Assembly (NCBI GenBank): GCA_030168575.1
Contig: CP115555.1
Span: 124,001-188,000, forward strand
Reading direction: 5' to 3'
Length of the DNA: 64,000 nt
Source: Methanomassiliicoccales archaeon LGM-RCC1
GTDB lineage: Archaea; Thermoplasmatota; Thermoplasmata; Methanomassiliicoccales; Methanomethylophilaceae
Shown here: positions 11,657-54,190 of the stretch, in pieces
How positions within the stretch are numbered: position 1 is the stretch's first letter
How the letters are laid out: each line of letters opens with the position of its first letter
Made by a program: the position numbers and the translations under genes
Notes under the pieces: model-generated
Told to the model about the DNA's origin: nothing
Seen by the model: the letters and a program-made list of their open reading frames with translations, nothing else
The model's database searches: none

Positions 11657-13150
11657 TCACTCTTTTCCCTTAAGGAAGTCATCGTCGGCCTGCTTGACGA
11701 TTGCTTCCATCTTCTTTGCGATCTCAGGGTCAATGGGTGCAACGACGTGGTTCTTGAGTACATCAACAACGATCTCGTGGGCGACGTCTACACATGCCTT
11801 GGATCCCTGTGCTCTCCAGTCTCCGATCATGTCCCTGTTGAACACAGTGGGGTCTGATGCGAGGTCGATGTTTGCCATGGTGGTGGGGTGTCCGATGAAG
11901 TCCTTTCCGACTCCGAGCTCCTTGATGACGGGGACTGCCAGGGTCTCGTCGTTGACGACGATTCCCTCGAGTGCCTTCCTCTCCATTGCGATGATGTCGT
12001 TGTCGATAACGAGCTGCTCGAGTGAGAAGGTCTGTCCGAGCTCAAGCATTCCGGATCCGTAGATCATGTTGACTCCGGCCATTGCGGGGAGAAGAGAAGT
12101 GATGGTCTTCTCGTGGGCTGCCTGGGAGTCAGGGACTTTGGCGTCGGTCTACATACCGGCCGTGAAGACGGGAAGTCCGTAGTACCTACCGAGCTCTCCT
12201 ACAGCTGCGGAGATGAGAGCGAGCTCGGGTGCTCCGACGGGTGCGGTTCCGTGCTTGAGGTCGAAGATCGTAGTGGAGGATCCGTAGTAGACGGGTGCTC
12301 CGGGCTTGACGATCTGAGCGAGGATGATTCCAGAGAGAATCTCTGCATTGTGGGTGACGAGTGTTCCTGCGAGGTGAACGGACGAGGATCCTCCAGCCAT
12401 TGCCATGGACAGGACGTTGACGGGGATTCCGAACTCTGCTCCCTGCTTGATAACCTGTGCTGCGTTGTGTGACAGCTCGAGAGGTGATGTGGGGCAAACG
12501 AGCATGGACATCAGGGGCCTGTCGCGGGCCTTCTCTGCGTCTCCTCCGTAGTATGCCTTGAGCATCTCCCAGTAGTACTTCACATGCTCAGCGACGGGGT
12601 CGATGTGGTGGAAGTGCTTGACGGTGTTGGCGATGGAGATGTACATCTCGTGGACATCCTCTGCTCCCTTTCCTGCCCAGTCTCTTGCGGAAACGGGAAG
12701 GGAGAAGTAGCTGATTCCATCTGCCCAGTCACAGAGCCTTGCAATCTGAGCAAGGTCCTCGCTGTTGGAGTCACGGGTCTCGTACTTTCCGTCGCCGAGG
12801 TAGTTACAAACCTGGATTCCGGTTCCGAAACAGGTGTAGTGGACACGTCCGTTCCATGCCTGCTCGACTGTGTGGTCGTCATCCCTTCCGTAGAGGTAGA
12901 ATGTCTTGGGGGCGGATGCGAGTGCCTTGTTCAGAAGGAAGTCGGGGATCCTGACCATCTTTGTCTCGTAGTTGACGATACAGCCGGCGTCCTCGAAGAT
13001 CTTGATACACTCGTCGTCAGAAACCTGCACTCCGTAGTTCCAGAGAACATCCCTTGTTGCAAGGTCGATTGACACGCAGTCATCATGGGTGAACAGGTTC
13101 ATCTTGATACCGTTCATTCCGATTTTTCCAGGGTACTGGATTTGTTTCAT
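11657..13150 (-). CDS. mttB: Trimethylamine methyltransferase MttB, pyrrolysine-containing
   Basis: Transfers a methyl group from trimethylamine to the Co(I) corrinoid of MttC. The frame is 498 codons including the stop, with a single in-frame TAG at 12149-12151. This is codon 334, exactly the pyrrolysine position of the Methanosarcina enzyme, in the context FTAGM[20 protein letters not shown]. The sequence continues in the same frame to TGA at 11657, so it is an intact gene, not a pseudogene. Typical motifs include [10 protein letters not shown] and [16 protein letters not shown]. It starts at ATG 13150 behind aggaggaaaacaa, 104 nt after mtbB, with a 10-bp hairpin in that gap. pylT and pylSBCD are not in the window. 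Confidence 0.97.
12149..12151 (-). other. In-frame UAG, pyrrolysine codon of mttB
   Basis: The codon reads CTA on the plus strand, TAG on the coding strand, as codon 334. Upstream and downstream peptides align as one continuous MttB protein, and position 334 is the established Pyl site of this family. Confidence 0.96.
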
Positions 13151-13253: not shown

Positions 13254-14660
13254 TCAGCGTTTCTGTGTCTTCTCGCGGAACTTCTCACAGCTGTTGATCT
13301 TGATGTCGAGAAGGTTCTCGATGTTCATCTTGGCTGCGATTCCGCGGGGTGCTCCGGGCACTCCGGTGACGATTCCGATTCCGAGCTCCTCACGGAGGTC
13401 CCTCATCACGAACTCGTCTGCAAGTTCTACAGCGGTGACACCGAGCTTCTTCGCGACGTACTCTTTAGCATCCTTGATTCTCATGTTCTTTCCGAACTGC
13501 ATCCTGGCGATGAGATCTCCGGTGGTCCTGATTCCTCCCATTCCCGATGTCAGGAAGTGAGGCAGGTCCATTCCGGCGGGGTCTCCTACTCCGCACTAGA
13601 TACCGTCGACTCCGGCGATCTCGACCATTGCCTTGCTGGCCCTGGAGACGGCGTCGATCGGGGGTGTCTCGCACATCGGGATTCCTCCGACTCCCATTCC
13701 CATGTCCGCGTGGATCGGGATGTTGGATGTCTTGACGGCCTCCTTGATGAATGTGACCGCCCTTGCGATGTTGAATGCGAGTGACTTGCTGGTGTTGGAG
13801 TTACAGACTGTTCCGCAGACGTTTGCTCCTGCCTTCTCTGCAAGGTGGACGTACTGGTGGGGGTACATTCCCGCGACGACCTGTCCCTCGAACTCGATCA
13901 TTCCGTGGATTCCCATGATGGACTCTCCAGCGAAACCGACCTGGATGTATGCCTCGGGGCACTGCTCCCTCAGGATCTTGACTCCGTTGAGTGTTCCGAC
14001 GCAGTCCGCATCTCCTGCGGAACCGGTTGTGTCGAAGTTGAATCCATCGGATCCGGCTGCCTGGAGCCTTGTTGCAACGTACTCGATATCCCTTGTAACG
14101 TGCTGGGATGCGAGCTCGGACTGCTGCATGGACTCCTCGATCTTGAACTCCCTCATGAGGTCTGCGGGGTTTCCGTAGGGTCCGTCAGGGGCATAGTAGA
14201 GTCCCTGGTTGGGCATAGCTCCGTAGAAGAACGGTGCGATGATCTCGGCCTGGATCTCCTCCATGGTCTGCATCTCCATGGAGATGACAGGCTTTACAGG
14301 CTTGATGGAGTAATCGGAGTGTGCGAGCTCGAATGTGTCGGCTCCAAGGGCCCTCTCGTGCAGCAGTGCTGCCTCGAGCCTTCCCATGTCGACTCCGTTT
14401 CCGGAGTTTCCGTTGTCTCCTGTGAAGTCCAGCTGTCCGATATCGTACGAAAGGACGACCTCCTGGCCGGGCTCTACTCCGACGACCCTGTCCTGACACA
14501 TGATGATCTCGGCGATGTGCTCGATAGCGTTCGCGTCCAACTGGGGGATGGAAGCCATGTCTGCTGCATCGGCGGTACCCTCATGGATATCGTCGAGGAT
14601 CTTCTCCTTGGTCATGGTGACTCTCTTTCCGTCACCCATTCTTGTGTAATACTCGCTCAT
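13254..14660 (-). CDS. mtbB: Dimethylamine methyltransferase MtbB, pyrrolysine-containing
   Basis: Demethylates dimethylamine, passing the methyl group to the corrinoid of MtbC. The frame is 469 codons including the stop, with one in-frame TAG at 13596-13598 (codon 355, matching the family Pyl site near 356) in the context [10 protein letters not shown][21 protein letters not shown]. Upstream family segments include [20 protein letters not shown] and [13 protein letters not shown]. The reading frame resumes without shift and ends in TGA at 13254. It follows mtbC by 13 nt with the weak GGTGAG site, so the pair is one transcriptional unit. Confidence 0.97.
13596..13598 (-). other. In-frame UAG, pyrrolysine codon of mtbB
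   Basis: CTA on the plus strand, TAG on the coding strand, codon 355 of mtbB. The surrounding protein is continuous and matches the known active-site Pyl of dimethylamine methyltransferases. Confidence 0.96.
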
Positions 14661-18081: not shown

Positions 18082-18122
18082 CATACGAAACCTGTTTAAC
18101 TGCTAGATCACACTCCAGCGAC
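18082..18122 (-). other. Trailer arm of the pre-23S processing stem
   Basis: This segment is complementary, within the RNA, to 21021-21062. The arms share CATACGAAACCTG (13 bp), GCTAGATCA (9 bp) and CCAGC, separated by short internal loops. The long helix brings together the ends of 23S rRNA for cleavage by the archaeal splicing endonuclease. Confidence 0.85.
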
Positions 18123-18129
18123 GTCAAAA

Positions 18130-21018
<2,889 letters not shown>

Positions 21019-21020
21019 AT

Positions 21021-21062
21021 CGCCGCTGGCGTATGATCTAGCACACGTCCAGGTTTCGTATG
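21021..21062 (-). other. Leader arm of the pre-23S processing stem
   Basis: Pairs with the trailer arm at 18082-18122 (see that entry) just upstream of the mature 5' end of 23S rRNA. Confidence 0.85.
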
Positions 21063-21187: not shown

Positions 21188-21222
21188 GCGCGAAATGCCC
21201 GTACAAGCAGGAAGTATTTAAC
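21188..21222 (-). promoter_or_regulatory. 23S promoter-like element 3 (proximal)
   Basis: On the minus strand TTAAATAC is followed, 29 nt from its first base, by CGCGC in GCATTTCGCGCATG. It is the weakest match to the TATA + GGGGTTGCGCGATG unit seen three times upstream of both rRNA genes. Confidence 0.55.
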
Positions 21223-52108: not shown

Positions 52109-52147
52109 TGACGTTCGATGCTACGTTTAGTGCATGGTAAGCTGCCA
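52109..52147 (-). other. Trailer arm of the pre-16S processing stem
   Basis: 52109-52125 (TGACGTTCGATGCTACG) is perfectly complementary to 53821-53837 (17 bp). A second, inner segment, 52133-52147, pairs with 53747-53761 over 15 positions with one mismatch. Together they form the long helix around 16S rRNA that precedes cleavage. Confidence 0.88.
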
Positions 52148-52231: not shown

Positions 52232-53703
<1,472 letters not shown>

Positions 53704-53746: not shown

Positions 53747-53837
53747 TGGCAGTTTACCATGTTTCACCGCTGTCCCGCTAAACGGCACACTCTTTCGAAT
53801 ATTCCGTCTAACGGAACATTCGTAGCATCGAACGTCA
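53747..53837 (-). other. Leader arm of the pre-16S processing stem
   Basis: Two segments, 53821-53837 and 53747-53761, pair with the trailer arms at 52109-52125 and 52133-52147. The arrangement matches the archaeal rRNA precursor helix. Confidence 0.88.
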
Positions 53838-53912: not shown

Positions 53913-53949
53913 CCGCGCATTCCCCTGTATATTGCTCAAGTATATAATC
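53913..53949 (-). promoter_or_regulatory. 16S promoter-like element 3 (proximal)
   Basis: Minus strand: TTATATAC box, then CAATATACAGGGGAATGCGCGG, with 29 nt from the box to GCGCG. Same spacing as element 2 of both rRNA genes. Confidence 0.66.
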
Positions 53950-54029
53950 CTATATGGAAGGCCACCGAGCCACATACATGGAACGTGACTTGACCGCCAG
54001 TGACTCTGGGAGTCGACCTGACGTCGCAT

Positions 54030-54066
54030 CGCGCAACCCCGTGTAATCTGAGGGAGTATATAAGAA
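54030..54066 (-). promoter_or_regulatory. 16S promoter-like element 2
   Basis: Minus strand: TTATATACTCC, then GATTACACGGGGTTGCGCGAT, with 29 nt from the box to GCGCG. The initiator segment is almost the same as element 2 of 23S. Confidence 0.7.
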
Positions 54067-54155
54067 TTCCTGACGGAGTTCTTTTCCCTCGAAACCTCGG
54101 GGTCGATCATCATCGCAAATCGGTCCGGACAACCACTGGGTGGTCGCCGCCTCAT

Positions 54156-54190
54156 CGCGCAACCCCCCCTATTTTCACGTATTATAAAAA
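54156..54190 (-). promoter_or_regulatory. 16S promoter-like element 1 (distal)
   Basis: Minus strand: TTTTTATAATAC box, then AAAATAGGGGGGGTTGCGCG and ATGAGG, with 27 nt from TTATAATAC to GCGCG. It would start the longest pre-16S transcript. No gene is visible in 53838-54378 apart from these promoter-like elements. Confidence 0.68.

Follow-up and report, generated by a model that had tools for sequence, protein, structure and literature searches.

The 16S and 23S rRNA genes of Methanomassiliicoccales archaeon LGM-RCC1, a gut-type methanogen, are unlinked, and the leader of each contains three TATA units. As judged from the sequence, these units are very probably tandem core promoters, three for each gene, with an apparently rRNA-specific initiator that is best accounted for by one constraint on both genes. 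The initial annotation had described three minus-strand TATA units in the 16S leader and had proposed them as tandem promoters that use a dedicated initiator. All three units were present at that place, and the proposal was well supported by the spacing, a matrix that left out the own genome, the conservation of the elements and a comparison with tRNA and 5S promoters. In this study, we also found two more 23S units, an AA in the BRE, a TA at -11/-10 and a hairpin that starts most of the predicted transcripts.

The genome is a single contig of 1.66 Mb. The window, the whole 64-kb stretch that was analysed, carries both rRNA genes about 31 kb apart (Table 1). The two copies of the 5S gene (L001 and L002) both lie outside the 16S and 23S loci. 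Rfam matches to the pyrrolysine insertion elements PYLIS_3 mttB and PYLIS_2 mtbB were found in the window at 12052-12151 and 13499-13598 on the minus strand, which suggests genes for methylamine methyltransferases that contain in-frame amber codons. In another genome of the family (G079), there are two 16S genes, at C1:1740638-1742103 and 1550807-1552273. The 16S or 23S matches of the relatives G035, G039 and G008 were fragmented at recurring model positions (L018-L022, L050-L057), which could be a search-splitting effect or real insertions.

Table 1. Features of the 16S and 23S loci in window coordinates. Promoter scores are from a matrix trained on other genomes; a slash marks the predicted start.
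Feature	Position	Strand	Score or match	TATA element	Predicted +1 (nt from mature rRNA)	Start region	Predicted RNA hairpin
16S promoter P1	54153..54198	(-)	46.2 bits	54189-54182	54160 (-457)	GGGGGGGTT/GCGCGATG	
16S promoter P2	54027..54072	(-)	55.1 bits	54063-54056	54034 (-331)	CACGGGGTT/GCGCGATG	
16S promoter P3	53911..53956	(-)	42.9 bits	53947-53940	53918 (-215)	CAGGGGAAT/GCGCGGTC	53916-53899
Probable 16S processing stem, 5' arm GACGTTCGATGCTACG	53821..53836	(-)	exact complement of 52110-52125				
16S rRNA gene	52234..53703	(-)	RF01959, 1485 bits				
Probable 16S processing stem, 3' arm CGTAGCATCGAACGTC	52110..52125	(-)					
23S promoter P1	21425..21470	(-)	37.6 bits	21461-21454	21432 (-403)		21432-21412
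23S promoter P2	21298..21343	(-)	48.6 bits	TTTAAGTAC, aligned positions 21334-21327	21305 (-276)	CAGGGGGTT/GCGCGACT	21305-21285
23S promoter P3	21185..21230	(-)	28.1 bits	TTAAATAC, 21221-21214	near 21192 (-163)	ATTT/CGCGCATG (degenerate)	
23S rRNA gene	18115..21029	(-)	RF02540, 2725 bits				

We searched the window for the pattern TATA-N21-TGCGCG. Four matches were found, three in the 16S leader and one in the 23S leader, whereas 100 dinucleotide shuffles of the window gave a mean of 0.04 and a largest count of 1. In all three 16S units, exactly 21 nt separated TATA from TGCGCG. The distances from box to GCGCG had previously been given as 29, 29 and 27 nt, values that reflect the point chosen as the beginning of the box. 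The copies had been placed at about -210, -330 and -455, in good agreement with the predicted starts in Table 1. A segment of unit 2 had also been described as recurring almost exactly in the 23S leader. Indeed, GATTACAcGGGGTTGCGCG (54048-54030) of the 16S leader and GATTACAGGGGGTTGCGCG (21319-21301) of the 23S leader were identical at 18 of 19 positions, but the 23S leader has three units and not one. A duplication origin common to the 16S and 23S promoter blocks was considered and rejected, since the matches between them were short (10-20 nt) and confined to the promoter cores.

To determine the promoter anatomy, we took 29 sites from six genomes of the genus and aligned them by their start motif. 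In the BRE, position -34 was A in 79% of the sites and position -33 in 97%, and the TATA element TTATATAC occupied -29 to -22. A promoter proximal element followed, with T at -11 (97%) and A at -10 (93%), then the G-rich stretch GGGG at -8 to -4, T at -1 and GCGCGATG at +1 to +8. The sites thus have a BRE near -33/-34, a TATA element near -26/-27 and an AT-rich element near -10, as expected of archaeal TATA/BRE core promoters. In the leader, neither sigma-70 promoters with -35/-10 hexamers (0 sites) nor terminators were found.

Genome-wide specificity was examined with pattern searches and sequence-model searches. GGGGTTGCGCG occurred three times in the 1.66 Mb, each time in a 16S or 23S leader. 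The loose pattern TATA-N17..26-TGCGCG gave 12 matches genome-wide against 11 in the control; only the exact spacing together with the full elements is therefore informative. No other non-coding RNAs were found at the loose-pattern matches. One exact-spacing match, C1:212106-212136, was considered as a further promoter and taken as chance, as it is antisense to protein genes. When the matrix was trained without the own genome, the six rRNA sites were the top six of the window with 28.1-55.1 bits, and the seventh site scored 7.5 bits. A genome-wide sequence model, built including the own six sites and with 150 of 293 first-look candidates scored, also ranked the six rRNA sites first (E 1e-10 to 1e-5), with the next at 0.005 and beyond. 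Because of how this model was built and applied, the leave-out matrix is the cleaner test. Two of the four next-ranked sites of the model lay directly before tRNA-Gly and tRNA-Asp. Occurrence at random genes had been named in the initial annotation as evidence against the promoters; in the genome-wide searches, no genes other than those of 16S and 23S had the full motif, and the promoters were thus not refuted by this check.

The tRNA and 5S promoters share the BRE, TATA, TA and T at -1 with the rRNA promoters, and of the 16 best tRNA/5S sites, 94% had T at -11. Their inferred +1 usually precedes the mature 5' end by 2-4 nt, which supports the placement of the rRNA +1 within a few nucleotides. 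GGGG and GCGCGATG together were not found at the two 5S genes, about 30 tRNA genes, SRP RNA and RNase P RNA, the other stable-RNA genes in which the motif had been suggested to be sought. One tRNA begins GCGCGGG, owing to its own sequence. Both 5S copies have TATA promoters with the start region CYGTATT/GGTATG, which lacks the rRNA initiator, and 5S would therefore stand outside the 16S/23S signal. From these comparisons, GGGG and GCGCGATG look rRNA-specific. The closest non-rRNA match of the window to the rRNA promoters, at 7.5 bits, was the tRNA-Ala promoter (41612, minus), which has TATA and, in its start region, AATAGGGGGGATT. tRNA-Ala has TAGGGGGGATT, and GGGG in the melted region thus also occurs outside rRNA genes. 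A GC-rich melted region was not retained as a peculiarity of rRNA promoters, as the GC content of -9 to -1 was 0.58 for rRNA and 0.51 for tRNA/5S, not a clear difference.

We infer that all three promoters of each gene are active, with high output and co-regulation of 16S and 23S, by the following factor binding, start and mechanism. TBP and TFB would bind at each of the three sites, to the TATA box and the BRE AA, and recruit RNA polymerase, which would melt the DNA from the TA at -11/-10. The start of transcription would be the G in TT/GCGCGATG or a base no more than two positions from it. GGGG (-8 to -4) and GCGCGATG (+1 to +8) probably form an rRNA-specific extended initiator or initially transcribed sequence. 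One constraint on 16S and 23S, for example at melting of the start site and escape from the promoter or through a common factor, would then match their outputs.

We also investigated the predicted 5' ends of the RNAs. The folding z score at +1 to +30 averaged -1.68, compared with averages of +0.37 to -1.02 at other offsets, and 45 of the 57 predicted transcripts had their first paired base at +1 to +3. In the hairpin of the 23S type, 98% of the cells were paired; changes on both sides occurred at three of eight pairs, a level equalled in 2 of 500 shuffles, within a set of seven sequences that were chosen because they pair. The predicted hairpins of other families differ in sequence but are also 5'-terminal. 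These results are consistent with a start segment that acts mainly as RNA, GCGCGATG being a 5' hairpin arm that protects the triphosphate end or binds a processing or antitermination factor, with a secondary role as DNA. We consider this unlikely. The selection of the covariation set for pairing weakens its support, GGGG at -8 to -4 lies upstream of the transcript, and 16S P1 and P2 keep GCGCGATG although it is not predicted there as an arm of a strong hairpin. The hairpin alone thus does not explain the conservation of the sequence.

Leader alignments within the genus comprised four genomes for 16S and three for 23S. Identical columns made up 90% of the promoter elements and 36% of the remaining positions in the 16S distal leader, and 88% and 50%, respectively, in the 23S upstream leader. 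Among circular shifts of the element mask, 1 of 342 and 1 of 357 reached the observed conservation, the unshifted mask being counted in both. The part of the leader that follows the last promoter was 93-95% conserved throughout, as expected of a processing region, in which the probable 16S stem is located. By sequence, the three sites at 16S and the three at 23S are kept in relatives, some of which have degenerate initiators.

It could be argued that the single nearest or strongest promoter matters and that the rest are duplicates that are redundant or in decay. In other genera of the family, there are one or two such promoters instead of three, with TGCGCG-like starts in several. In the 16S leader of G014 (L013), the units with boxes at -361 and -238 (P2 and P3) are nearly identical over ~40 nt (CACAAGGCTTATATACCTCT..CGATATACA.GGGAATGCGCG), which suggests recent copying or homogenisation of promoter units. 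However, the elements are kept in all three units while their surroundings diverge, and in another family (f6) as many as three sites are likewise present at each of the two genes. A single effective promoter is therefore improbable, and we retain tandem promoters at each gene.

Other families of the order have TATA with a different start sequence. Family f6 has GGGAAA/GCY at as many as three sites per gene, on 16S as well as 23S, and the 16S genes of families f2 and f5 have GGGGATTCT/GCGC and GGGGGCTA/CGC, respectively. By sequence comparison, the initiator of these families is roughly common to their own 16S and 23S genes. A comparable triple array was absent from the leaders sampled in other orders of the class. 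We compared 16S with 23S across four families, with sites outside the own family picked by eye. Identity at -9 to +6 was 0.64 within and 0.46 between families, that of the spacer was 0.385 and 0.372, and that of the TATA segment was 0.66 and 0.54. The family matching of initiators ranked first among 24 permutations. This test is weak because the sites were hand-picked, only four families were compared and the TATA segment also depends on family, if to a lesser degree; co-change of the 16S and 23S initiators by family is suggestive.

The presence of the initiator in all six promoters, and of a different version common to 16S and 23S in another family, points to one constraint on both genes. Equal 16S and 23S are needed here without a common transcript, and the six promoters on two unlinked genes form a natural experiment in an archaeal setting in which the balancing of rRNA synthesis is poorly known. 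We tentatively raise the possibility of a lineage-specific initiator code (GGGGNTT/GCGCGATG here and GGGAAA/GCY in another family) that coordinates the unlinked rRNA genes of the order. A common factor or RNA polymerase might read it at melting or escape in a discriminator-like manner, and the 5' hairpin might be a second shared signal. Should coordination indeed act through the initiator, this sequence would correspond in archaea to the bacterial rRNA discriminator.

The repeats might also be elements of pre-rRNA processing or RNA folding rather than promoters, as the leader in which they sit is structured and undergoes processing. This is very improbable, since the stem 53821-53836/52110-52125 lies downstream of all three 16S repeats, and TATA, BRE and TA stand in the geometry of tRNA promoters, without a known processing role. 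Chance repeats in a base-biased leader, to which the loose-pattern counts and the antisense exact-spacing match would lend themselves, have a negligible probability, as high scores occur only at rRNA leaders when the exact spacing and full elements are required, and the leader conservation test refutes chance.

A literature search found no mapped starts in Methanomassiliicoccales, and we compared the promoters with those of other archaea. Stable-RNA promoters of Methanococcus consist of box A and box B, a TATA element and a TGC-type motif at the gene start, with box B present at tRNA as well as rRNA genes. The rRNA promoters here likewise combine TATA with a TGC-type start, but the tRNA and 5S genes lack GCGCGATG. 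Thermoplasma, which belongs to the same broad group as this archaeon, also has separate 16S, 23S and 5S genes. In Sulfolobus, 16S and 23S form one operon with one promoter, in contrast to three promoters on each unlinked gene here. The initially melted region of the Sulfolobus 16S/23S promoter adds to its strength and sets its TFE dependence (PMC4495717), and duplex stability near the start has been proposed as a conditional promoter element (PMC8448881). By this start-region effect and proposal, a common initiator would let the unlinked 16S and 23S genes respond alike.

The promoter of Thermococcus onnurineus has an A-rich BRE, TATA, an AT-rich -10 element, a pyrimidine at -1 and a purine at +1 (PMC5316973), and the core promoters here are of the same type. 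Published archaeal positions of the BRE (-33/-34), TATA (near -26/-27), PPE (-10) and initiator also fit (PMC5316973, PMC8943987). The start region of T. onnurineus is weakly specified, whereas nearly all six promoters here have an apparently rRNA-specific sequence of 8-12 nt. Serial promoters before 16S are shared with haloarchaea. Halobacterium cutirubrum has up to five tandem rRNA promoters, one of them growth-rate regulated, and the three mapped starts of Haloferax volcanii, at -185, -293 and -444 of 16S, resemble the -215, -331 and -457 predicted here (PMC4983044). The haloarchaeal promoters, however, drive one linked 16S-23S-5S operon, whereas here the genes are unlinked and have three promoters each with a common initiator. 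Tandem archaeal rRNA promoters are thus already known, and their repetition on unlinked 16S and 23S genes with an rRNA-only, lineage-specific initiator is a variant of them.
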